Shown here: positions 11,447 through 38,743 of the stretch, in pieces
Layout of the letters: each line of letters opens with the position of its first letter
Position numbering within the stretch: the stretch's first letter is position 1
Origin: an uncultured Phocaeicola sp.
GTDB taxonomy: Bacteria; Bacteroidota; Bacteroidia; Bacteroidales; Bacteroidaceae
NCBI GenBank assembly: GCA_944321335.1
Contig: CALUKX010000017.1
Location: forward strand, 1-43,029
DNA length: 43,029 nucleotides
Direction: 5' to 3'
Translations under genes and position numbers: made by a program
The notes under the pieces: generated by a model
The model's input: only the letters and a program-made list of their open reading frames with translations
Told to the model about the DNA's origin: nothing
Database searches by the model: none

Positions 11447-13609
11447 TTATCGGATGATATCCATTTCTTCAATCAGATGTTTGGCTCCTGCATATTTATC
11501 GATGATAAACAAAATGTATCGGATATCTACGCAGGCGGCTCTTTGAAGGGCAGGGTTATAAGCGATATCACCTGTCAGTCCTTCATAATTGCGGTCGAAG
11601 CCGGTACCGATAAGCTCACCTTTGCTGTTGAATACAGGTGAACCGGAATTACCGCCTGTATTATCTGTAGCTGTAGCAAAACACACCGGCATACGTCCGT
11701 CGGCCATAGCATAAGGGCCGAAATCTTTGTTCTTGTATAGCTCTTTCAACTTGCTCGGAACTACAAATTCCGGATTGTTAGGATCTTCTTTCTGCATCAC
11801 CCCATCTAATGTGGTGAAGTAAAGATATTCAATCCCGTCGGCAGGCGAATAAGAACCTATCTTGCCATAGGTGAGGCGTAGTGTGGAATTTGCATCTGGA
11901 TAAACAGCTTTGCCTTCTTTCTTTTTCAATTCCAACATTCCGGCTATCCAAATCTTGTGTGCCCTGTTATAAGCATCGGTTTCGGCTTTCATGGCTTCGC
12001 TTGTAGCCTTATACCCGTTTCTGACAGATTCGGCATAATCGGTCATAAGGTCATCTTGTAATGTATCGGCCGAAGGATTGGCTATGAAATCGGCCAAAGC
12101 TTCCGGACTTCTGAAAATAGAGGTATCGAAACAGGCATCTACAAAAGCGTCAATATTACCTTTGAATTCCTTGTCGATACGTTCGAAAATACTGATTCGT
12201 TGGTCTGTCGGAATTAATCGGGCATATAACGAAATAAGTTGCTTGGATACTTTACGGTCGACAGCCGTATTATAATCCTTATTGAAATATTTCTCGCCAG
12301 CTGTTTTCAGTTCTGCCAATTCCTTTTCTATTTCTTTTGATTTACCGGTCTGCAGTGCGGTAAGAAGCTTTCCGGTAGCTGGAATCCTGGAGAATTCCGT
12401 ACCTAACATCAAGGCTTCGTAAATGGCTTGCTGGTGATAGACATACTGATATCGTTTAGCCACAATCTGTTTGATGGCATTATAGGCATCCTGATAAGCC
12501 GGGTTATCTGTTTCTCTTCCATAGGCCAGCAACTTTTCTTGCTCGGCACGCTTCCGGTCAAGCACTTTCAGCTTGACCAATCCTTCGTTCATACCGATCG
12601 CATTCTTCCAATAATTGGCCGAAGAAGCATATTTGGCAGCATACTGGATACGGGTTTTTGCGTCTTTGGCCATTTCTTCACCCAAGATACGGAGGCGTAC
12701 ACCACGGATCGTATCACGCATGAAATTGGTAGTCTGCATGCGTTCTTCCACTTCGTCACTGATCATGTATCGCCAGTTCCTTCCTGGAAATCCCATTACG
12801 AAAGTAAAATCACCTTCTTCAATCCCTTTCATGTTGATGGTGATATGTTTCTTCACTTTCAGCGGTACGTTCTTTTCAGAATATTTTGCCGGTTTACCGT
12901 CGGCTGTAGCATAGATGCGGAAGATGGAGAAATCGCCGCAATGGCGTGGCCACATCCAATTGTCGGTATCGGCACCGAACTTCCCGATGGAAGAGGGTGG
13001 AGCACCCACCATACGGATGTCTTCGTAGACGGTCTTTACAAAAAGATAATATTTGTTGGCTCCATAGAACGGTTTCAATTCCAGAACGGTGAATTCGTCG
13101 GTCTTGATCTTCTCTTTTTTTGCAAAGCGTTTTGCAACTTTCTCAAGGTATGATGGAGAAAGATAGTTCAGTCCTTCCGGATCTTTGTCTTTTTTCAATT
13201 GCTCCTGTACATAGGATGTTACATCCAAAATGCGGTCAATAAATGTAATGGTCAATCCTTGGCAGGGTAGCTCTTCACTGCGTTGCATGGCCCAGAATCC
13301 ATCGGTCAGATAGTCATGTTCTACAGAACTGTGTTGCTGGATATAGCCGTAACCGCAATGGTGGTTTGTCAGTACCAAACCTTCCGACGAAATTATTTCT
13401 CCGGTACAACCGCCACCGAAGTGTACGACAGCGTCTTTCAGGCTGATATTGTCGGGGCAATAGATTTTATCGATAGCCAAATCCAATCCCAAATCCTGCA
13501 TGACTGCAGCATTCTGTTTCTTCAGGTCGGTAAGCATCCACATTCCTTCATCGGCATATCCTGTAAGGAACGATGCAGCCAAGAGGGTGGTCAGAATAGT
13601 TTTCTTCAT
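11447..13609 (-). CDS. dpp11: S46 dipeptidyl-peptidase, DPP11-type (Asp/Glu-specific)
   Basis: This secreted serine exopeptidase releases dipeptides with acidic P1 residues from oligopeptides in the periplasm. It has 720 residues with an N-terminal signal peptide (MKKTILTTLLAASFLTGYA). The catalytic histidine lies in TNHHCGYG near residue 84 and the nucleophile is Ser655 in GGNSGSPVF. Residue 673 is Arg (GFDR), the residue known to select acidic P1 side chains in Porphyromonas gingivalis DPP11. Numbering fits exactly when the start is taken at 13609. The longer frame to 13681 would swallow the promoter at 13652-13682. It lies directly downstream of the DPP7-type paralogue but has its own promoter and terminator. 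Confidence 0.95.
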   Translation of the reverse strand: MKKTILTTLLAASFLTGYADEGMWMLTDLKKQNAAVMQDLGLDLAIDKIYCPDNISLKDAVVHFGGGCTGEIISSEGLVLTNHHCGYGYIQQHSSVEHDYLTDGFWAMQRSEELPCQGLTITFIDRILDVTSYVQEQLKKDKDPEGLNYLSPSYLEKVAKRFAKKEKIKTDEFTVLELKPFYGANKYYLFVKTVYEDIRMVGAPPSSIGKFGADTDNWMWPRHCGDFSIFRIYATADGKPAKYSEKNVPLKVKKHITINMKGIEEGDFTFVMGFPGRNWRYMISDEVEERMQTTNFMRDTIRGVRLRILGEEMAKDAKTRIQYAAKYASSANYWKNAIGMNEGLVKLKVLDRKRAEQEKLLAYGRETDNPAYQDAYNAIKQIVAKRYQYVYHQQAIYEALMLGTEFSRIPATGKLLTALQTGKSKEIEKELAELKTAGEKYFNKDYNTAVDRKVSKQLISLYARLIPTDQRISIFERIDKEFKGNIDAFVDACFDTSIFRSPEALADFIANPSADTLQDDLMTDYAESVRNGYKATSEAMKAETDAYNRAHKIWIAGMLELKKKEGKAVYPDANSTLRLTYGKIGSYSPADGIEYLYFTTLDGVMQKEDPNNPEFVVPSKLKELYKNKDFGPYAMADGRMPVCFATATDNTGGNSGSPVFNSKGELIGTGFDRNYEGLTGDIAYNPALQRAACVDIRYILFIIDKYAGAKHLIEEMDIIR

Positions 13610-13651
13610 AACATAAGATGAAATTGATTGTTGCATAGAAGTTGGTTTATG

Positions 13652-13730: not shown

Positions 13731-15896
13731 TTATTCAATGATTGTCATTTCATCGATCAGGTTCTTGCAGCCACCCAATTTTTCAACGATGAAAAGGATA
13801 TAGCGGATATCAACTGCAATGCAACGCTGGAGGTTATTGTCGAAATTGATATCGCCTGAAAGAGATTCCCAGTTACCGTCGAATGCTGCACCGATCAGTT
13901 CACCGCTTCCGTTGATGACCGGTGAACCGGAGTTTCCGCCGGTAATATCGTTGGTGGTCAGGAAACAGGTCGGCATTTCACCGTTAGGCATTGCATAGCG
14001 TCCGAAATCCTTGTTGTTATACAGTTCTTTCAATTTTGCAGGTACAACGAACTCCGGATTGTTAGGATCTTCTTTTTCCATTACTCCTTTCAAGGTAGTG
14101 TAATAGTTATAGTGGATACCATCTTTCGGATCGTATGGTTTCACATTTCCATAAGTCAGACGAATAGTAAAGTTTGCGTCCGGAGCTTTCGGGGTAGGAG
14201 CATACATTTCGCACAAACCACGAACATATGTTTTGTGCAACAAATCGATATTACCGCTCGCTTTCTCACGCTTGTCATATAGCTTTTTTGCCATTTCATT
14301 TTTTGTAGTTGAATATGCAATAGCCAAGTCGTTGTCGATAGCTTCTACTGTCGGATTTTCAATGAACGCATTGAAGTTCTTTTCATTCGAGAAGATGCTG
14401 TTATCATACAAAGCATCAATATAAGCATTGTAATCGCCATTGAATTTAGTCTTGATGGTTTCGTAGAATACGGGAAGTGCATCTGCATCAACACTCTGTG
14501 CATACAATGGAATCAGCACCTTGGCAACCTTGCGGTCTACTTCATGGTCGTAATCTTTGTTGTGGATAGCGTTGTAAGCTTCCTTCAATTGTTCGATGCT
14601 TTTTTCAATGTCTTTCTTTTTGCCTTTCTGGAGAGCAGTCTTCAGATTATTGAAGATCATATATGTAGCACCGAATTCGATACCGTTGCGGAAAGTTTCG
14701 TTAAAGTAAGTCTGTTCTTTGGTAATCGGTGTGATGTTTGCTACATAATCATCGATTTCAGAAACTACCTTGGCATAATCGGCGTTGTTCTTGTCTTTTG
14801 CATACTGAGCGAACTTTGCTTCTTGTTCCGCTTTAGTTTCCAATACATTATTGTCGATGATCGCTTTGTTCATACCGATTGAGTTCTTCCAGTAGTTGCT
14901 TGAACTTGCAAACTTGCTGGCATACTGAATACGAACTTTGTCGCTTGCAGCCATTTCCTTGCGCAATACGTCCTGACGTGCTTCACGAACTTGGATGCGT
15001 GGAGTGTTTACTGCATCCATGCGAAGTTTGACTTCACTCTGAGTCAGGTAACGACTGGTACTTCCAGGGAATCCCATAATCATGGCATAATCGCCTTCCT
15101 GCAAACCTTTCAGTGAAATAGCCAGATGTTTCTTTACCTTCAATGGCACATTATCCTTACTGTAAGCAGCTGGATTGCCATTTTTGTCGGCATAGATACG
15201 GAACATGGAGAAGTCGCCTGTGTGACGCGGCCACATCCAGTTATCAGTTTCACCTCCGAATTTTCCGATTGATGAAGGAGGGGCTGCAACCATACGTACG
15301 TCATTGTAGGTCTTGATGAAGAACAAATAGAATTTGTTGCCTTCATAGAACGGCAATGCCAAAGTTGAGATACCCGGTTTCCCTTTCAGGTCGCTCTTCT
15401 TCAATTCCTGTTTAGCGAGTTTGTCAAGATATTCGTACCCGAAGGAATTGATTTCTGTAACTTTACCTTTCTTGATATCTTCATTTACCTTATCGGTAAT
15501 ATCTACAATTCTTTCAACGAACTTGAAAGTCAGACCCGGGGTAGGAAGTTCCTGTGAACGGTCTTTAGCCCAGAAACCATCGGTCAAGTAATCGTGTTCA
15601 ACAGAACTATGCTGTTGGATTGCATCGTATCCACAATGGTGGTTAGTCAGAATCAGTCCATCAGGAGAAATGATTTCTCCTGTGCATCCACGGCCAAAAA
15701 TACCTACAGCATCTTTCAATGAAATACCATTCGGATTATAGATGTCTGCAACATCCATCTTTAACCCCTGTGCTTTCATACGGTCGGACAGGTTCTGTTC
15801 CTGCATGAGCTGAAGAAGCCACATTCCTTCATCGGCTTTCACCGGTGCAAAGACGGCACAAATCAGTGCCAATGCCAAAACTTTTAATTTTCTCAT
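13731..15896 (-). CDS. dpp7: S46 dipeptidyl-peptidase, DPP7-type (hydrophobic P1)
   Basis: This 721-residue secreted S46 peptidase is paralogous to its downstream neighbour. The signal peptide [21 protein letters not shown] is followed by [10 protein letters not shown]. The catalytic histidine lies in [21 protein letters not shown] and the nucleophile is Ser656 in GGNSGSPVI. The residue 18 positions after the serine is Gly (AAFDG) where DPP11 has Arg, which is the DPP7 state and favours aliphatic or aromatic P1 residues. Together the pair would cover acidic and hydrophobic peptides, feeding amino acids to a peptide-using Bacteroidales. It has its own -7 box and terminator. Confidence 0.93.
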
Positions 15897-25415: not shown

Positions 25416-26690
25416 ATGAAAAAATCTTTTTTATTGGGACTGCTTTGTTGTAGTTACTTTGTCCTTAATGCACAGACAGCCAAGGAAGAAATAAACGACA
25501 ATATTTATCTTTCGGCCGCCAATTATTATGCTTATCCGAACCCGACATCGAAACTTACTCCGGCGCCTTCCGGTTACAAGCCATTTTATCTCAGTCATTA
25601 CGGCCGCCACGGATCCAGGTATCTGATTGATCCGAATGATTACAAATATCCGTTGCATGTGCTGCAGGAAGCAAAACACAATGATGTGTTGACCGGCTTA
25701 GGAGAAAATACATTGACGATACTCGACAGCATTTCTGCAATGGCTGAAGGACGTTATGGTGAACTGACGGCATTGGGAGCCCGTCAGCATAAAGAGATTG
25801 CAGCACGGATGTACCGGAATTTTCCTGAAATATTTCAGGGTGATGCTACAATCGATGCACGCTCTACAGTGGTAATCCGTTGTATCTTGTCGATGATGGC
25901 AGAGTGCAATCAGTTGCAGGCCCTCAATCCTAAACTTCATATCGCGGCAGACGCCAGCCATCACGATATGTATTATATGAATAATAACGACCCTTATTTC
26001 GTGAATATCCGTGAGGGAAATCGAATCGATTCTTTGTTTGCTGATTTGAAGAAAAAATATGCTCACCCCGAACGTCTGATGAAATCACTTTTCAAGGATA
26101 CCGATTATATCAAATGGAAAATTGATGGAACGGAGTTGATGATCCGGCTGTATAGTGTGGCTGTAAATATGCAGAGCCATGATACCGACATGGAGCTGTT
26201 CTCTTTATTTACGAAAGATGAATTGTATGATTTGTGGCGGATAACGAATGTATATTGGTATGCCGCTTTCGGTCCTGCCCCGCTTACGGAAGGCAAGATG
26301 CCTTATATACAGGCAAATCTGTTGGAGAACTTTTTGGATACGGCTGATACTTGCATCGTGAAGAAGGATAATACCGCCACCTTACGTTTCGGACATGAGT
26401 CTTGTCTGTTGCCTTTGGTCTGCCTGTTGGAATTGGACAATGCAGATTATCAGACAACCGATCTGGATAATCTGGACAAAGAGTGGCGGAATTATAAGTT
26501 TTTCCCGATGGCTTCCAATGTCCAGTTTATCTTTTATCGCAAGAAGAAATCGGATGATATCCTGTTGAAGGTGCTTTTGAACGAAACGGAGGCAACATTA
26601 CCTGTCGAGACAGATATGGCTCCTTATTATCATTGGAAGGATGTGGAGTCTTATTATAGGAACAAGTTGGCTTCATTCAGAAAAAACTGA
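25416..26690 (+). CDS. Secreted histidine-type phosphatase (MINPP/phytase-like), paralogue 1
   Basis: This 424-residue branch-2 histidine phosphatase has a signal peptide ending near LNAQ. The phosphohistidine motif is RHGSR with catalytic His65. The C-terminal motif is FGHESCLLPL with His327-Glu where many members have His-Asp. Relatives in Bacteroides include inositol-polyphosphate phosphatases acting on phytate, but substrates of this one are unproven. A paralogue of 427 residues lies 5 kb downstream and aligns end to end, with both catalytic histidines at identical numbers. No lipobox is seen, so it is probably periplasmic or packaged into vesicles. Confidence 0.88.
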   Translation: MKKSFLLGLLCCSYFVLNAQTAKEEINDNIYLSAANYYAYPNPTSKLTPAPSGYKPFYLSHYGRHGSRYLIDPNDYKYPLHVLQEAKHNDVLTGLGENTLTILDSISAMAEGRYGELTALGARQHKEIAARMYRNFPEIFQGDATIDARSTVVIRCILSMMAECNQLQALNPKLHIAADASHHDMYYMNNNDPYFVNIREGNRIDSLFADLKKKYAHPERLMKSLFKDTDYIKWKIDGTELMIRLYSVAVNMQSHDTDMELFSLFTKDELYDLWRITNVYWYAAFGPAPLTEGKMPYIQANLLENFLDTADTCIVKKDNTATLRFGHESCLLPLVCLLELDNADYQTTDLDNLDKEWRNYKFFPMASNVQFIFYRKKKSDDILLKVLLNETEATLPVETDMAPYYHWKDVESYYRNKLASFRKN

Positions 26691-31655: not shown

Positions 31656-31673
31656 GTTTCATTTCTGTTTCAT
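31656..31673 (+). promoter_or_regulatory. PhoB-box-like direct repeat GTTTCAT-N4-GTTTCAT
   Basis: Two identical 7-mers (31656-31662 and 31667-31673) are separated by TTCT, giving the 11-bp period of PhoB boxes. The word resembles the E. coli CTGTCAT half-site. It lies about 60 bases before the -7 box at 31732, farther than usual for an activator touching the polymerase. Confidence 0.4.
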
Positions 31674-31731
31674 GTGAGGAGAAAACGTGTTTTTCTTACC
31701 TTATTTATATTATGCCAAATCGGTGAACGAT

Positions 31732-31739
31732 TATTTTTG
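31732..31739 (+). promoter_or_regulatory. Probable -7 box of the second histidine phosphatase gene
   Basis: TATTTTTG lies 29 bases upstream of the ATG at 31769. Confidence 0.4.
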
Positions 31740-31768
31740 CCACGCATAAAAAAGATGATAGTCAATCA

Positions 31769-33052
31769 ATGAAGAAAGTGTTTTTAGTGGTATCGCTGTT
31801 TAGCCTGGCCTTTTCGGTTCAGGCTCAGACAGCAAGAGAGGAAATTCAGAAGGATCCGGCTTTGGCTTCCGGAAAGTATTATGCTTATCAGGCACCCGAT
31901 GTGCAGCTCACTCCGGCTCCCGATGGTTATGAACCGTTTTACATTTCTGCCTTTGCCCGTCACGGGTCGCGTTATCTTACCAAAGAAAAGAAATATGCCC
32001 AACCTTTGGGACAGTTGCTTGCTGCCGATGAGGCCGGGGCGCTGACTGCCGATGGAAAACGCACTTTGAAGGTGGTGGCCGCATTGGCTCAGGAAGCCGA
32101 AAACAAATACGGTGAACTTACTCCGAAAGGAGCCCAGCAGCATCGCGAGCTTATCGGCCGCATGTATAAGAATTATCCGCAGGTATTTCAGAATGGTATC
32201 CATGTCGATGCGCGTTCCACTTATAAGACACGGGCTTTCCTTTCGATGGCTGCCGCTTGTGTAGAGCTGAAGGGTTTGAATCCGCAGTTGAATGTTACTA
32301 CCAATACCAGCGAAGCGGATACCTATTATATAAAGTATAAGAATCCGCTTTATGAGGCACAACATCTGGAAAACATCGATTCGGTTTATCAGGCTGCCGA
32401 CAGTGTTTACGTACATCCGCAACGTTTGATGAAACAGCTGTTCAAGGATTCGGCTTATGTTGCACAGAACATCAAGGATCCTGTAAAGCTGATGGCTGAC
32501 CTGTTTGAGCTTCACGGAATCAGCCAGAGCAGTTACAACCAGCCCGACCTTTCGTTCCTGTTTACCGATGAAGAATTGTATAATATGTGGCAGCGAAACA
32601 ATTTTGAATGGTATTACGAAAAGGGTGCTTCACCGTTGAGCGACAATTGCATGTATAAACTCGAACGCAATCTGTTGAACAACTTTATCGAAACAGCCGA
32701 TACGGTCATCGCTTCGAAGAAGAATGCGGTAACCTTGCGTTACGGACACGATACGAATCTGGCACCGTTGGCTGCCTTGATGGGAATCAACGAACTGCAG
32801 ACATCCACTGCCGACTGGCAGAAGATTGCCGATACCTATCGTACTTACCGTATTATCCCGATGTGTGGAAATGTGCAGCTCATCTTCTATAAGAAGAAAG
32901 GTTCGAAAGATATTCTGGTCAAACTTCTGCTCAATGAGCGCGAAGTCCGTTTGCCGCTTGCTACCGACACCGCTCCTTATTATAAATGGAAGGACGTACG
33001 AGGTTATTGGAAAAAGGTTGTAGACGGAATTGACCTCCCGGCAAAGCAATAA
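31769..33052 (+). CDS. Secreted histidine-type phosphatase (MINPP/phytase-like), paralogue 2
   Basis: This 427-residue branch-2 histidine phosphatase has a signal peptide (MKKVFLVVSLFSLAFSVQAQ). The catalytic motif is FARHGSRYL with His65, and the proton-donor motif is YGHDTNLAPL with His327-Asp, the usual HD form. It matches paralogue 1 over its whole length (LTPAPDGYEPFYIS, KYGELTPKGAQQHRELIGRMYKNYPQVF, DARSTYKTRAFLSMAA). It is the first gene of the phosphatase/receptor cluster and is preceded by a PhoB-box-like repeat. The likely job is release of phosphate from inositol phosphates or other esters in the periplasm; the substrate is inferred from family only. Confidence 0.9.
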   Translation: MKKVFLVVSLFSLAFSVQAQTAREEIQKDPALASGKYYAYQAPDVQLTPAPDGYEPFYISAFARHGSRYLTKEKKYAQPLGQLLAADEAGALTADGKRTLKVVAALAQEAENKYGELTPKGAQQHRELIGRMYKNYPQVFQNGIHVDARSTYKTRAFLSMAAACVELKGLNPQLNVTTNTSEADTYYIKYKNPLYEAQHLENIDSVYQAADSVYVHPQRLMKQLFKDSAYVAQNIKDPVKLMADLFELHGISQSSYNQPDLSFLFTDEELYNMWQRNNFEWYYEKGASPLSDNCMYKLERNLLNNFIETADTVIASKKNAVTLRYGHDTNLAPLAALMGINELQTSTADWQKIADTYRTYRIIPMCGNVQLIFYKKKGSKDILVKLLLNEREVRLPLATDTAPYYKWKDVRGYWKKVVDGIDLPAKQ

Positions 33053-33075
33053 TCAATAGATATATGAATATAAAT

Positions 33076-33112
33076 GGCCTGCAATGTGTTGAAAATAAAT
33101 GCATTGCAGGCC
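33076..33112 (+). terminator. Terminator of the second histidine phosphatase gene
   Basis: A perfect 11-bp stem (GGCCTGCAATG with CATTGCAGGCC) with a 15-base loop is followed by TTTCTGTTTGTTT. Confidence 0.8.
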
Positions 33113-33154
33113 TTTCTGTTTGTTTGTAACAGAATCTTAAAATGTGTAGTGTGA

Positions 33155-33183
33155 ATGTAACAAGCCTGCAACAAACATGAAAA
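33155..33183 (-). promoter_or_regulatory. Three 7-mers at 11-bp spacing before the TonB-dependent receptor gene
   Basis: ATGTAAC (33155), CTGCAAC (33166) and ATGAAAA (33177) recur at exactly 11-bp steps. On the minus strand they read TTTTCAT, GTTGCAG and GTTACAT, close to the GTTTCAT words at 31656-31673. They end 10 bases before the -7 box. The orientation is opposite to the other two sites. Confidence 0.35.
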
Positions 33184-33193
33184 GCGACCTCCA

Positions 33194-33201
33194 TACCTTT
33201 G
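33194..33201 (+). promoter_or_regulatory. -7 box of the receptor/lipoprotein operon
   Basis: TACCTTTG lies 19 bases upstream of the ATG at 33221. No good -33 box exists; the repeats at 33155-33183 occupy that position, as expected for an activated promoter. Confidence 0.5.
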
Positions 33202-33220
33202 CAGCAAATAAAAAATAGAG

Positions 33221-35872
33221 ATGAAATCGAAATTGGTATTAGGTTTATGCTTGTTGGCTTCTTTGCAGGCTCAAGCATGGGACATTAAAGGAAGAATTAA
33301 AGATGCACTGACTGGGGAGGAGATTATCGGTGCATCGGTAATGGTGAAGGAGGAACCGGGAAGGGGAGCTGTAACCGGATTGGACGGTAGCTTCAATCTT
33401 TCGGTCAGTAGAAAGAAGTACACGCTGGTTTGCTCTTATGTAGGTTATAAGAGAGTGGAAATCGAAGTGGATGCTTCGCGTAAGGAAATTGAAATTCCAA
33501 TGAAGACCGACGACGTGGAACTGGCTGGTATCACTGTTGTTGCAAAGAATCCGGGTAGAACCGAAGCGGGTGCGCGCGGAATCGAAAAGCAGGCTATGAA
33601 CGTGGTGAACGTGATGAGTGCGAAAGCGATCGAGCTTTCTCCGGATATTACGGTGGCAAACGTCATCCAGCGTATGTCGGGTGTAACTGTTGAACGCAAC
33701 AGTAGCGGTGAAGGACAGTATGCGATCCTTCGCGGTATGGATAAGAGATATAACTATACATTGGTCAACGGAGTGAAGATTCCGAGTCCGGACAACAAGA
33801 ACCGTTTCGTGCCGTTGGATATTTTCCCGTCGGAAATGCTGGATCGTCTGGAGGTGACCAAATCATTGACTGCAAATATGGAAGGCGACGGTATCGGTGG
33901 TGCCGTAAACCTGATTATGAAGGATGCACCGACCGAACGCCAGTTTACTGCAAACATTTCTACCGGTTATAATGCAATGTATTTCGACCGTGATTTCCAG
34001 TCGTTCAAACATGGCGATATCGCCAAGAAGTCGCCGTACGAAGCAATGGGAATGCCCGAAGACTATAAGGTTACAGCCGATAACTTCAAGATGTCGAACT
34101 TGCGCATGGATTGGAAGAAACCTTTGCCCGACCTTACTGCAGGTATTTCTTACGGCGATCGTTTCTTCAAAGACAAGTTGGGTGTGATGCTGGCAGGTAG
34201 TTTCCTGAATACCTATCGTGGTAAGGAAAGCGAACTTTACTATCAGCCGGGAACTGCCCACAACGGTATCGAGTATCGTAATTATTCTTCGCAACAGACA
34301 CGTATCGGGGCTCACGTGAAACTCGATTATCAGATCAATCAGAATCATAAACTTACTTGGTACAACGGTTATATGGATATGATCGAAGCCGAAGTACGTG
34401 ACGGAAAGGACGATAAGGAACGTCAGATCCGTATGAAATGGAATCATCAGTATATCATCAACTCGACCTTGAAGGGTGAGCATCAGTTCATGAACGACGG
34501 TGCTTTGCGCCTGAACTGGTCGGCTGTGGTATCGAAAGCTTACAGCGAAACTCCGGATAATGCCGAAATCTATATGCAGGGATCGCATGTTCAGACTTCA
34601 GGCGCTGCCATCCGCCGTTGGGAACACAATTCCGACAAGGATTTTGCAGGTTACCTGGATTTGATGTACAAGCTGAAACTCGACAACGGTTCTGTATTCG
34701 ACTTTTCTATAGGAGGTATGTACCGCGACAAGAAACGCGACAGCTTCTTCAATGAATATACATTCAATTCGGCAACAGGAAACAAGGATCCGCAGTATAT
34801 CGGTGAGGATTGGAACAACTTCGATGAAATCCTTCTTACTCCGCGTCCTTACGGAAACATCGGCGACCCTTTGAACTACGATGCAACCGAAAAGATCGGT
34901 GCCGGATACGGTATGGTGAAATATACGTTAGGTAAACTGGAATTGATTGCCGGTGTACGTGTGGAACATACCGATCAGGGATATGTGTTGAAATTCGCCC
35001 GTGACGTGGATCCGGAAGGTAATCAGAAATATACCGATGTATTGCCTAGCTTCCATGCCAAGTATGCGGTGCACGAGAATGCCAATCTGCGTTTCTCTTA
35101 CGCCCGCTCAATCAACCGTCCGAGCTTCTTCGAAATCGTTCCTTACAGCATCATCAACGAAGACTATAAGGAGAAAGGTAATCCGGACTTGGAACATACG
35201 GTAGCCGACAACGTGGATATCCGTTACGAATTCTTCCCACGTTCTTCCGAACAGATTATGGTGGGCTTGTTCTATAAGCGTCTGAAGAACCCGATCGAAT
35301 ATGGATTGCTCAACGAAGGACAGGATACTTACTACAAGCCGATGAACTTTGGTAATGCCAATAACCTTGGAGCGGAAATCGATGTGATGAAGTATTTCAA
35401 CTGGTTCGGTATCAAGGCCAATTATACATACACTCACTCGAAGATTACAACCGACAAACGTATCATGAACGGATCGGAAGTTACCTCCAAGCGCCAGTCG
35501 CGTCCGTTGTTCGGTCAGGCGGCACACGTAGCCAACCTTTCCTTGCTCTTCAAGGATACCAAACACGGATGGGAAGGACAGATTGCAGGTAGCTATACCG
35601 GAAAACGTCTGAGCGATATCTCCAACTGGTACGACGACGATATTTGGGAAGACGGATATTTCCAGCTCGACGCATCGGTTGAGAAAAGCTGGAAAAACGG
35701 ACTCAGCATCTTTGCCAAGGCATCGAACCTGCTCGATACTCCGTTGCTCCGATTCATACAGGACGGTCCTCATACAGCCAATGTAAATTCCGACCGTCAC
35801 AAAGGAAACGTAATCGAACGTAAGGAATGGCACGGACAGTCGTTCATGCTCGGTGTACGATTCAAACTTTAA
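33221..35872 (+). CDS. TonB-dependent outer-membrane receptor with carboxypeptidase-regulatory-like N-terminal domain
   Basis: The 883-residue protein has a signal peptide (to about LQAQA) and a CarboxypepD_reg-like domain at about 20-95 (DIKGRIKDALTGEEIIGASVMVKEE). A plug domain at about 110-235 contains VIQRMSGVTVERNSSGEG, RGMDKRYNYTLVNGVKIPSP and GDGIGGAVNL. A long beta-barrel follows and ends in a terminal aromatic/hydrophobic strand (FMLGVRFKL). It is not a SusC-type protein in length or motifs. The next gene, 58 bases on, encodes a surface lipoprotein rather than SusD. Flanking phosphatase genes suggest uptake of a phosphate-containing compound, but metal chelates or other ligands remain possible. 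Confidence 0.9.
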   Translation: MKSKLVLGLCLLASLQAQAWDIKGRIKDALTGEEIIGASVMVKEEPGRGAVTGLDGSFNLSVSRKKYTLVCSYVGYKRVEIEVDASRKEIEIPMKTDDVELAGITVVAKNPGRTEAGARGIEKQAMNVVNVMSAKAIELSPDITVANVIQRMSGVTVERNSSGEGQYAILRGMDKRYNYTLVNGVKIPSPDNKNRFVPLDIFPSEMLDRLEVTKSLTANMEGDGIGGAVNLIMKDAPTERQFTANISTGYNAMYFDRDFQSFKHGDIAKKSPYEAMGMPEDYKVTADNFKMSNLRMDWKKPLPDLTAGISYGDRFFKDKLGVMLAGSFLNTYRGKESELYYQPGTAHNGIEYRNYSSQQTRIGAHVKLDYQINQNHKLTWYNGYMDMIEAEVRDGKDDKERQIRMKWNHQYIINSTLKGEHQFMNDGALRLNWSAVVSKAYSETPDNAEIYMQGSHVQTSGAAIRRWEHNSDKDFAGYLDLMYKLKLDNGSVFDFSIGGMYRDKKRDSFFNEYTFNSATGNKDPQYIGEDWNNFDEILLTPRPYGNIGDPLNYDATEKIGAGYGMVKYTLGKLELIAGVRVEHTDQGYVLKFARDVDPEGNQKYTDVLPSFHAKYAVHENANLRFSYARSINRPSFFEIVPYSIINEDYKEKGNPDLEHTVADNVDIRYEFFPRSSEQIMVGLFYKRLKNPIEYGLLNEGQDTYYKPMNFGNANNLGAEIDVMKYFNWFGIKANYTYTHSKITTDKRIMNGSEVTSKRQSRPLFGQAAHVANLSLLFKDTKHGWEGQIAGSYTGKRLSDISNWYDDDIWEDGYFQLDASVEKSWKNGLSIFAKASNLLDTPLLRFIQDGPHTANVNSDRHKGNVIERKEWHGQSFMLGVRFKL

Positions 35873-35930
35873 GAGAAAATTTTACAACATTATTAAAATA
35901 GAAAATTCAGTTTAACTAATTATTTACTTT

Positions 35931-37322
35931 ATGAAATTCAATGCATTTTTAGTAAGTGCAGCTTTGATGTCAATGACATTGGTAGCATGTAGTGATGACG
36001 ACAACACTGTTGACAATGGTGGTAACGGCGGAAACAACGGAGGTAACGAACCTACTACCGAAATGGTTTCCGGTAATGTAGAAGGCGTTTGGAAAGCAAA
36101 CTCCATTGTTAAGGTAGGTGGCCACATCGTAGTTCCGGAAGGAAAGACACTGACTATCGAAGAAGGTGTTCAGGTGATCTTCGACGATAAAGGTGTAGGT
36201 GTAAATCATGCTCCGATCGAATTTACCGTAAACGGTAACTTGTATTGCGAAGGAACAGAAGCAAATCCTATTCTGATGTCGGTTGCTGAAGAAGACCGTA
36301 CAGAAGCCAATATCTTTGAAGGTTTGTGGGGTGGTATCGTTGCTTCATCTACTTGTGAGGAAATGTTGATCGACCATACTATTATCGAATACACCGGTGG
36401 TCAGGTAATCGAAGGTTCTCCTGCCGCTACTAACGGTGTGTATACTGCAGGTGACGATGCTTATCCGCAGATTACTACAAACAACATCAACGGAAAATAC
36501 GTTATCACCAACTCGGTATTGCGTAACGGTTGGTCGGACGGTATCTACCTGATGGGTGGTAATGCAATCATTGCCAACAATACATTTGCTGCTAACGGTT
36601 ACGACGGTGCAGAAGCTGTTAACGTAAAGGCCGGATGTAAGGTAGACGTTGCAGGTAACGTAATGTTCAGCCCGAACACCAACGGTATGAAGTTGTCTAG
36701 TTCAGGTCAGAGCGAAAACCGTGGACAGGCTAAGGTTCAGGCTTACAACAATACCATCATCAACGCAGGATGGCGTCGTGACGGTGAAAAGGGTGGATGT
36801 ATCTACACTGAAAAGAACGCTTTGGTTAACGTAATCAACAACTTGATGGTTAACTGTAAGTTCCGTGCAATGACTCCGAACTACGAAACACCGAACGATC
36901 CGGAAGAAGGTTATGATGAAAACTCAATCGTAGATTATAACTACTACACTTCAGGAAGCCAGAAGAGTGATGTAGTGTTCGATGGTCCGGAAGATACAGG
37001 TGTAGCTTACTCATGGCAGGGTTACAACTACGCACACGAAAACTATTACAACGGCGTGGTTGACAAGAACAGTGTAATCGCTACAGAAGAAAACTCTGAA
37101 GACCCGATGTTCGTTAACTTCGACATCAACGGTGTCGGTCTGACTGACTATGTTTACGATGCTGCTTGGGACTTCCACGTACAGGCTAACTCACCGGTAT
37201 TGAGCGGTGCTTATCCTAAATCGGATATCACTCCGTATTTTGCAGGTGGTCTGACAGTAAACGGCAAGTCGTACAAATCACCGGCTATTGCAAATCACTT
37301 CGGTGCTTTCGGTACTAAATAA
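35931..37322 (+). CDS. Surface lipoprotein with parallel beta-helix
   Basis: This 463-residue lipoprotein has a lipobox (LVAC) with Cys20, followed directly by SDDD. An acidic run at this place is the Bacteroides signal for export to the cell surface. A Gly/Asn-rich linker (about 25-42) leads to a region rich in repeated strands: AIIANNTFAANGYDGAEAVNVK, GNVMFSPNTNGMKLSS, AYNNTIINAGW and NALVNVINNLMVN. This is the pattern of a right-handed parallel beta-helix. No catalytic residues are recognised. It is probably cotranscribed with the receptor gene and may be its surface-exposed substrate-capturing partner. Polysaccharide-lyase activity is an alternative for this fold but the usual motifs are not seen. 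Confidence 0.82.
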   Translation: MKFNAFLVSAALMSMTLVACSDDDNTVDNGGNGGNNGGNEPTTEMVSGNVEGVWKANSIVKVGGHIVVPEGKTLTIEEGVQVIFDDKGVGVNHAPIEFTVNGNLYCEGTEANPILMSVAEEDRTEANIFEGLWGGIVASSTCEEMLIDHTIIEYTGGQVIEGSPAATNGVYTAGDDAYPQITTNNINGKYVITNSVLRNGWSDGIYLMGGNAIIANNTFAANGYDGAEAVNVKAGCKVDVAGNVMFSPNTNGMKLSSSGQSENRGQAKVQAYNNTIINAGWRRDGEKGGCIYTEKNALVNVINNLMVNCKFRAMTPNYETPNDPEEGYDENSIVDYNYYTSGSQKSDVVFDGPEDTGVAYSWQGYNYAHENYYNGVVDKNSVIATEENSEDPMFVNFDINGVGLTDYVYDAAWDFHVQANSPVLSGAYPKSDITPYFAGGLTVNGKSYKSPAIANHFGAFGTK

Positions 37323-37356
37323 TCCGACTCCCTAATACACAATTTATAGATCTTTT

Positions 37357-37395
37357 AAAGTCCGGCCTGAAAATTTGTTCCAGAGCCGGACTTTT
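37357..37395 (+). terminator. Terminator of the receptor/lipoprotein operon
   Basis: A stem (AAAGTCCGGC with GCCGGACTTT) is followed by TT. It lies 35 bases after the stop. Confidence 0.85.
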
Positions 37396-37801
37396 AAGTT
37401 TATGTGTATTCTTTTTACCTGTATAAGGTGTCTCCGTAATAGCTTTCCTATCGGATTTCCTCATTCTTCCTGTAAGGGCATGGGGGGGAGTATAAACCCC
37501 TTGACATTTCTGCAGAATTATTTGATATATTCCAAAATATCCCTTGACAGATTGCTGGAGATTCCTTGACGCAGTCGGAAAAATGTTTTGTCATTTGGAT
37601 GGATATGATTTGATATCTTGAAATATACATTTCGTCCTTCTCGGGCGAATTCCTGATACTTTTCGGAATTCTCTCGAACGAATGAAATTATGTATGAAAT
37701 ATTTTACGGAAAAAATCTCCGTTTTTCAGATTCATTTCAGTTTTGATACTCATCTTTGTATCATTAAAAATATCCAATTATTCACATTTAAACTATAATT
37801 T
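37396..37801. other. Intergenic region before the TRAP-like phosphatase, with short repeats
   Basis: No gene was recognised. CCTTGAC occurs three times (37499, 37542 and 37564; steps of 43 and 22 bases). GAATTCC/GGAATTC (37647-37653 and 37665-37671) can form a small hairpin without a T-run. The 11-bp-spaced repeat and a weak -7 box near the gene are listed separately. Confidence 0.55.
37723..37758 (+). promoter_or_regulatory. PhoB-box-like repeat and weak -7 box of the TRAP-like gene
   Basis: TTTTCAG (37723-37729) and ATTTCAG (37734-37740) share TTTCAG at an 11-bp step. Ten bases later comes CATCTTTG (37751-37758), a -7 box lacking the preferred T. The repeat takes the place of the -33 box. 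The long leader to the ATG is AT-rich. Confidence 0.4.
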
Positions 37802-38743
37802 ATGTTTTCGATTAAAAAATCATTGATTGCCTTATCATTGGCATTGGTATCGGCATTTGCTTTTGCACAAACTCCCGAAGTATGGAAGACACTCGAAAAG
37901 CCTCTGAATTTCTATCTGGCAAACGACCTGGGACGAAACGGCTACTATGATCAGAAACCGATAGCGGAACTTATGGGGACTATGGCCGAAAATCTCGACA
38001 TCGAATGTGTGGTGGCTGCCGGCGACGTTCATCATTTCGAAGGTGTCCGCAGCGTGAATGACCCGTTGTGGATGACGAACTACGAACTGGTTTATAGCCA
38101 TCCGGAACTTATGTTGCCTTGGTATCCAATCTTAGGTAACCATGAATACCGTGGAAACACACAGGCTGTAGTCGATTATTCGAATGTGAGCGCCCGTTGG
38201 GAAATGCCCGACAAATATTATACTAAGGTAGTGGAAAACGATGATATCACAGTCCGTCTGGTGATGATCGATACATCTCCGCTGCTCGACAAGTATCGTG
38301 AAGATACTGAAAAATATCCGGATGCATGCAAACAGGATATCGACAAGCAGTTGGCTTGGATAGATTCAGTACTCACATCGGCTAAGGAAGACTGGGTGCT
38401 TGTAGTTGGTCATCATCCTATCTATGCGGATACAAAGAAAAACGACTCTGAACGTCTAGACATGCAAAAGCGTGTAGACTCTATCTTGCGCAAACATAAC
38501 GTAGATATGTATCTTTGCGGTCATATCCACAACTTCCAGTACATCCGCAAGGCCGACAGCAACATTGATTATGTTGTCAACTCATCAGCATCATTGAGCC
38601 GTGATGTAAAACCAATCGACGGAACCAAGTTCTGTAGCGGTGAAACTGGCTTCTCATTGATTGCTGCCGACAAGAAGGAACTCAACCTTCACATGATCAA
38701 CAAGGAAGGTAAGGTACTCTATACTGTAAGCCGTAAGAAATAA
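37802..38743 (+). CDS. Secreted TRAP-like (purple-acid-phosphatase family) phosphatase with Tyr-to-His metal-ligand change
   Basis: The 313-residue protein has a signal peptide (MFSIKKSLIALSLALVSAFAFA). It aligns unusually well with small mammalian-type tartrate-resistant acid phosphatases (ACP5): LPWYPILGNHEYRGN, SARWEMPDKYY, DWVLVVGHHPIYAD and MYLCGHIHNFQYI. Metal blocks are DLG (Asp42), GDVHH (Asp75), GNHE (Asn113, His114), VVGHH (His204) and GHIH (His241, His243). In purple acid phosphatases the second block is GDxxY; here the Tyr position is His78, so the Tyr-Fe(III) chromophore cannot form. The gene closes the phosphatase/receptor cluster and has its own terminator. It probably hydrolyses phosphomonoesters in the periplasm or outside the cell. 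Confidence 0.85.
   Translation: MFSIKKSLIALSLALVSAFAFAQTPEVWKTLEKPLNFYLANDLGRNGYYDQKPIAELMGTMAENLDIECVVAAGDVHHFEGVRSVNDPLWMTNYELVYSHPELMLPWYPILGNHEYRGNTQAVVDYSNVSARWEMPDKYYTKVVENDDITVRLVMIDTSPLLDKYREDTEKYPDACKQDIDKQLAWIDSVLTSAKEDWVLVVGHHPIYADTKKNDSERLDMQKRVDSILRKHNVDMYLCGHIHNFQYIRKADSNIDYVVNSSASLSRDVKPIDGTKFCSGETGFSLIAADKKELNLHMINKEGKVLYTVSRKK

Follow-up and report, generated by a model that had tools for sequence, protein, structure and literature searches.

Gene content and transcription units of the locus

The window analysed here is the whole stretch of 43,029 nucleotides at positions 1-43,029 of contig CALUKX010000017.1 (assembly GCA_944321335.1, an uncultured Phocaeicola sp.), and the system in question lies at positions 31656..38743. 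Four genes follow one another on the plus strand: a secreted clade-2 histidine phosphatase (HP), a TonB-dependent receptor (TBDR), a predicted surface lipoprotein (LIPO) and a secreted purple-acid-phosphatase-like enzyme (PAP). A preliminary description had proposed a phosphate-ester scavenging locus made of these four genes, consecutive on one strand, and all four reading frames are present in the order given there.

Pfam assigns TBDR (33221..35872, plus strand, 883 aa) an N-terminal carboxypeptidase-regulatory-like domain (CarbopepD_reg_2, PF13715) followed by Plug and barrel domains. Its score against TIGR01782, 299.7 bits, lies just below the cut-off of 310 bits, and the siderophore and heme receptor models of NCBIfam score it far under their own cut-offs. 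LIPO (35931..37322, plus strand, 463 aa) has no Pfam, NCBIfam or PDB match of its own. Its right-handed beta-helix type is predicted from its family, in which 9 of the 20 members match Beta_helix (PF13229, best E 4e-7), and from N-rich repeats seen by eye in LIPO; searching the PDB by sequence with a profile of LIPO gives chance-level hits only (best E 0.13). The reading of this receptor/lipoprotein pair as non-Sus is supported: no SusD family turns up when LIPO and its homologs are compared with Pfam, nor any SusC model when TBDR is compared with NCBIfam.

An acidic stretch after the lipobox cysteine is the surface-export signal of Bacteroides. The lipobox of LIPO, LVAC with Cys20, is followed by SDDDN, and of 78 named homologs examined, 68 show a lipobox, 51 of these 68 with at least two acidic residues in the five positions after the cysteine. 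This resemblance to the export signal suggests that LIPO is exposed at the cell surface. Furthermore, the basic residues K233, K254 and R282 are identical in all 20 LIPO sequences, which fits an anionic ligand.

Regarding the enzymes, HP (31769..33052, plus strand) matches His_Phos_2 (PF00328, E 2.5e-14) and carries the motifs RHGSRYL, at residue 64 and conforming to the RHGxRxx motif of the MINPP family, and GHDTN. It is 70% identical to PDB 7r5y over 406 aligned columns, and MINPP structures are matched more distantly (E about 1e-46). PAP (37802..38743, plus strand, 313 aa) is a TRAP-like metallophosphatase: it matches Metallophos (E 1.7e-16) and, by sequence, mammalian TRAP (E 6.6e-35), and the motifs GD, GNHE, GHH and GHxH are all present. 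The tyrosine ligand of TRAP (GDNFY in mammals) binds iron and gives the purple colour. In the alignment, this column holds histidine in 18/18 sequences (the window PAP, where it is H78, and 17 homologs), and a pattern search of a wider set returns histidine in 67 of 71, the other four being unparsed; a new metal-site variant is possible. Because both HP and PAP have a Sec-type signal peptide without a lipobox cysteine (by eye), both are probably periplasmic. A lipobox-like motif does occur within the first 40 residues of 31 of the 71 PAP homologs (L126-L225), so that PAP may be a membrane-anchored lipoprotein in some species.

The terminator scan places a terminator-like stem of 15 pairs between HP and TBDR (33076..33112, plus strand); it returns 10 such sites where shuffled sequence averages 7.8, and the runner-up stem has only 7 pairs. 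By eye, a further GC-rich stem with T after it, outside the output of the scan, is seen near 37359-37393, and the gap between LIPO and PAP measures 479 bp. TBDR and LIPO probably share one transcript, since they are only 58 bp apart and the promoter box described below is found upstream of LIPO in 0/20 family loci in either orientation at period 11. The number of transcription units is at least two, and three is probable. A single four-gene operon is ruled out by the stem after HP, the gap before PAP and the separate boxes.

Conservation of the receptor/lipoprotein pair and its partner enzymes

Neighbourhoods were fetched from the 19 other LIPO-positive genomes of the family, one per genome. 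TBDR adjoins LIPO in 19/19 and PAP is kept in 17/19, being missing in L035 and L039; in two loci (L047 and L050) PAP lies upstream of TBDR, and the link therefore survives rearrangement. A second set comprises the best 80 of 162 confirmed loci in named genomes, many of which are close relatives and not independent; L168 and L178 have no scorable LIPO frame, and further loci at contig ends are left out of individual counts. In this set TBDR is directly upstream of LIPO in 74/74 scorable loci and PAP directly downstream in 67/74. The records are titled Phocaeicola plebeius, P. coprophilus, P. barnesiae, Bacteroides salyersiae and Parabacteroides, among others; the B. salyersiae locus, L154, has PAP upstream and on the opposite strand. 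The conserved core is thus the TBDR-LIPO pair, and its expected partnership with a phosphatase is upheld by the PAP counts of both sets. HP behaves differently: it stands beside the module in 4/19 family loci and upstream of TBDR in 8/62 scorable named loci, all eight titled Phocaeicola, Bacteroides ilei or Bacteroides mediterraneensis. HP is an accessory, optional neighbour; its candidacy as a core component is ruled out by these two counts and by the homologs found elsewhere in several genomes. The four-gene neighbourhood anticipated in the preliminary description is conserved for the receptor, the lipoprotein and PAP, and not for HP.

Beyond the family, the LIPO profile matches 154 of 395 genomes of the phylum at E <= 0.001, mostly over part of its length, and 23 at E < 1e-25, two of which belong to the family of the window. 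The distant set consists of 20 loci, drawn from 19 genomes that belong to other families (G407, G189 and a further three second copies are outside this set), and TBDR is directly upstream of LIPO in all 20. In six of them (L126-L131, four families), the gene directly after LIPO is a beta-propeller phytase, which takes the place of PAP. Four of the six match PF02333 when scanned, and phmmer identifies the remaining two as homologs of these (L128 to L129, 1.9e-203; L128 to L131, 1.4e-202). A seventh TBDR-LIPO-phytase locus (L240) occurs in another genome, where the phytase profile scores 1.3e-199. PAP homologs are present in L133 and L144, and other metallophosphatases in L140 and L143.

Nine distant loci (L132, L133, L135-L139, L143 and L145) encode an unnamed lipoprotein family of about 310 aa, here called F3, with the motifs EASGL...NDSG and EPQGEA and no convincing Pfam match. 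The EASGL...NDSG motif looks propeller-like by eye, and F3 is possibly an unrecognised propeller-type phosphatase; its homology with beta-propeller phytases is unsupported (hhalign probability 2.6%). L134, L141 and L142 have neither a recognised phosphatase nor F3, with a sub-threshold metallophosphatase match near L141 (E 0.012). One genome, G409, holds two copies of the pair, L128 with the phytase and L141 without a recognised enzyme. In a tree of 43 receptors, the window-family receptors, nearly all PAP-linked, and six phytase-linked ones form a clade of 25 (support 97/99), outside which the PAP-linked receptors of L133 and L144 fall. The L032 receptor, split in two frames, was omitted from the alignment and the tree, and L240 is also absent from the tree.

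Promoter repeats shared with phosphate genes

Each of the three putative units is preceded by a repeat of the form TGNAAY-N5-TGNAAY, with a period of 11 bp, clear for TBDR and HP and weaker for PAP. The TBDR/LIPO unit has TGTAAC-N5-TGCAAC together with a -7 element (TACCTTTG; 33156..33201, plus strand), HP has TGAAAC-N5-TGAAAC (31656..31672, minus strand) and PAP has TGAAAT-N5-TGAAAA (37723..37739, minus strand). The Bacteroides-type -7 element has the consensus TAnnTTTG, and in the clearest TBDR promoters the repeat stands roughly 20 bp above it.

The box consensus was read by eye from 20 family promoters and scored on those same 20 and on the partly overlapping named set. At period 11, a score of at least 9/10 is reached by 12/20 family TBDR promoters, against 0-3 at other periods and a mean of 0.6 (maximum 3) in mononucleotide shuffles. 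For the named TBDR promoters the count is 46/70. The remaining periods give 1-10 (the 10 being at period 16), mononucleotide shuffles average 2.3 (maximum 7), and of 385 further genes in these loci 13 reach the score. When the reverse strand is read with a period of 11, 5/20 family and 5/70 named TBDR promoters also attain 9/10. The HP promoters carry the repeat in reversed orientation at period 11 in 9/9 cases (eight named loci and the window), against 0-1 at periods 8-10 and 12-15, and in 4/5 of a smaller family set. For the PAP genes that lie more than 140 bp after LIPO, 5/15, the one in the window included, reach 9/10 in minus orientation at period 11, with 0-1 at other periods. The repeat is also present in 3/4 pstS promoters, and the fourth reads CGTAAC-N5-CGTAAC by eye.

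A strict pattern, in which the repeat and the -7 element are combined, was searched in four whole genomes (that of the window, G112, G013 and G140) and gives four matches; run backward as a control, it gives none. The single match in the genome of the window falls exactly before its TBDR. The other three are in G140, of the same genus, where they precede pstS, the gene of a Porin_O_P protein and that of a PHO4 phosphate transporter (loci L226 and L229 among them). Because the repeat is common to pstS promoters and its strict form precedes pstS, Porin_O_P and PHO4 genes, it is very probably a Pho box, judging from the promoters compared here. PstS itself has no match in the genome of the window, which is 84% complete. 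At the level of sequence, the shared regulation foreseen for the locus is supported, as a common element of 11-bp period precedes the TBDR, HP and PAP units as well as pstS. A working Pho-box definition for the genus Phocaeicola is thereby provided, for which the Porin_O_P and PHO4 genes behind the strict box in G140 (L226 and L229) are useful Pho-regulon anchors.

Relation to known systems and proposed function

The nearest published counterparts come from Flavobacterium johnsoniae (F. johnsoniae), as given in PMC8115612. There, the TonB-dependent transporter (TBDT) Fjoh_0545 and the lipoprotein Fjoh_0546, with a pectin-lyase fold entry, belong to the phoBR cluster and are strongly induced by depletion of inorganic phosphate. 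The same paper describes two phosphate systems, PUSIV (Fjoh_0545/0546, with an FII lipoprotein) and PUSIII (Fjoh_3857/3856), in which, as in the window, a receptor with PF13715 and Plug stands beside a non-SusD lipoprotein. The PUS type is recognisable in the window by a CarbopepD_reg_2 and Plug receptor directly followed by a non-SusD lipoprotein. The FII lipoprotein of PUSIV has the entry IPR011050 and a low-phosphate response (PMC8115612); the Beta_helix matches of 9 of the 20 LIPO family members, the window protein not among them, may point to a similar fold here. Unlike PUSIV, the window pair is not beside phoBR (neighbours judged by eye) and is instead linked to PAP or to a beta-propeller phytase, and in the tree the FII-type receptors are separated from its TBDR at 100/100, on long branches.

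The genome of the window also holds a second TonB receptor and beta-helix-like lipoprotein pair (L051, contig C3, 11722-15680, minus strand), which is of PUSIV type in the receptor tree and has, by eye, a similar repeat of 11-bp period upstream. Homologs of this pair occur in 8/8 loci fetched from another family. In seven of the eight they stand beside response-regulator-like and kinase-like genes, and five of these seven also contain a porin-like gene, an order that resembles Fjoh_0541-0546 (by eye). Because the L051 type resembles Fjoh_0541-0546 while the window TBDR branches apart, the window pair is, on gene order and receptor phylogeny, a sister subfamily of the experimentally phosphate-responsive Fjoh_0545/0546 pair. 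The phosphate-linked, non-Sus pair of the preliminary description is supported as a non-Sus pair and not without precedent, since a related pair was already reported as induced by phosphate starvation (PMC8115612). The system is a variant of the Pus-type outer-membrane phosphate systems, itself new; titles and abstract openings of the open-licence literature yielded no description of a TonB receptor/beta-helix lipoprotein pair with PAP in gut Bacteroidota.

Other analogues are more remote. In F. johnsoniae, the TBDT Fjoh_1368 lies next to the phytase Fjoh_1367 (PF02333) and is strongly induced by phosphate depletion (PMC8115612), a pairing resembled by the seven TBDR-LIPO-phytase loci found here; as Fjoh_1367 and Fjoh_1368 are numbered consecutively, no lipoprotein gene can lie between them, unlike in the present loci. 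BtMinpp (BT_4744) of Bacteroides thetaiotaomicron, a periplasmic, vesicle-borne InsP6 phosphatase (PMC3969271), is like HP a clade-2 histidine phosphatase with a signal peptide. HP differs in having HD rather than HAE, in being far closer to 7r5y and in adjoining an importer. The SusC/SusD arrangement likewise has a receptor gene followed by a lipoprotein gene, from which the present pair departs in the beta-helix-like family of its lipoprotein as well as in its lack of SusC and SusD matches. ElpS of Caulobacter crescentus, a phosphate-starvation surface lipoprotein linked to phosphatase activity (PMC2996285) and related to the FI/FII lipoproteins (PMC8115612), depends on a type II secretion system for its release (PMC2996285) and is, by description, a more distant analogue.

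Taken together, the locus is best read, with a probability of roughly 0.6, as a Pho-regulon module that would scavenge organic phosphate at the outer membrane, with phytate or lower inositol phosphates as the likeliest ligand. LIPO, exposed at the surface and physically paired with TBDR, would bind the phosphorylated ligand and pass it to the receptor, which would bring it inward to the periplasm with TonB energy. There, PAP, assisted in some Phocaeicola and closely related species by HP, would strip off phosphate, and the freed inorganic phosphate would enter through inner-membrane transporters. The dephosphorylation-linked uptake suggested in the preliminary description thus keeps its phosphatase partner and gains a Pho-type element, while HP proves optional and the genes do not form one operon. 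The narrower step from organic phosphate to inositol phosphates is tentative, with the odds slightly against it; it rests on the phytase partners and on the invariant basic residues of LIPO. Histidine, beta-propeller and purple acid phosphatase classes each include phytases (see also PMC12406696). More doubtful still is a dedicated TonB-driven importer of intact inositol phosphates, in which the beta-helix lipoprotein would fill the role of SusD and the periplasmic enzyme would be swappable among three unrelated folds: histidine, beta-propeller and PAP-like with the Tyr-to-His metal site.

The principal alternative is an importer of inorganic phosphate, or of small phosphoesters of any kind (nucleotides, sugar phosphates, glycerophosphodiesters), that is not specialised for inositol phosphates and has the phosphatases as helpers of broad specificity. 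TRAP-like enzymes are of broad specificity, the box is common to general phosphate uptake genes and the partner enzymes differ between lineages, all of which this proposal accommodates. It is nevertheless unlikely, as the repeated pairing with beta-propeller phytase, a rather specific enzyme, points to phytate, and the Porin_O_P gene of the same presumed regulon could already serve inorganic phosphate. The beta-helix family of LIPO also invites the idea of a surface enzyme with the pectin-lyase/polygalacturonase fold, which would cleave a plant cell-wall glycan or a phosphorylated polymer into pieces for the receptor to import; binding or hydrolysis of plant glycans has been suggested for the related FI/FII lipoproteins (PMC8115612). 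LIPO as a GH28 enzyme is rejected, given that the NTD, GHG and RIK motifs of that family are absent, and no carbohydrate-active Pfam domain is found among the matches of the 20 family members, so that a surface enzyme is quite improbable. The least probable proposal is a phosphate-regulated importer of iron or a metal complex (a siderophore or ferric phytate), which might, for example, supply metal to the metallophosphatase. In its favour, siderophore and heme receptor models do score TBDR, in every case well short of the cut-off. Against it stand the promoter elements, which match those of Pho genes, and a table of four TBDTs in PMC8115612 that includes Fjoh_0545.

Several observations weigh against the module as a phosphate scavenger of organic esters. 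Its distribution is patchy: of 151 family genomes, 20, that of the window included, contain a strong LIPO homolog (E <= 7e-57), and the TBDR subfamily, at E <= 1e-200, occurs in 2 of 61 genomes of a distant genus (that of G352). The promoter element thins out as well, since only 5/20 distant TBDR promoters reach 9/10, a good box is present at only 5/15 separately placed PAP genes, and the strict box is absent from G112 and G013 of the same genus, whose TBDR promoters carry looser versions. Among the 20 distant loci, ten have a recognised phosphatase nearby, seven only F3 and three neither. As for the enzymes, PAP lacks the tyrosine metal ligand of its family, and HP homologs, found in 13 of 23 genomes searched, lie in several of them apart from the module. 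The donor motif of HP is HD, at residue 327, and the MINPP tripeptide HAE is absent; HD is, however, given for other phytases in PMC12406696.

Plant food stores its phosphorus mainly as phytate. The passage of organic phosphate across the outer membrane of gut Bacteroidota is not settled in the literature consulted, and the present locus names a small gene set for such uptake in cultured commensals, e.g. Phocaeicola plebeius DSM 17135 (L167) and P. barnesiae DSM 18169 (L147), each of which has all four genes, HP included. If the import of intact inositol phosphates were true, it would amount to a 'selfish' phytate uptake by gut Bacteroidota, as opposed to the shared, vesicle-borne hydrolysis by BtMinpp. 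The pair further suggests that importers built like Sus, from a receptor and a lipoprotein, also serve nutrients other than glycans, the lipoprotein then having another fold.

Elsewhere in the window, outside the locus, a second clade-2 histidine phosphatase (25416..26690, plus strand) is a paralog of HP, 44% identical to it, and carries RHGSRYL and GHES; it lies just upstream of an mfd-like gene, and its donor position is HE by eye, neither HD nor HAE. The HP homolog of L084 (G013) contains one TGA stop within the match, a pseudogene or a sequencing error. Finally, positions 11450-13636 and 13734-15896 of the window (minus strand) encode two S46 peptidases in tandem, as assigned by Pfam.

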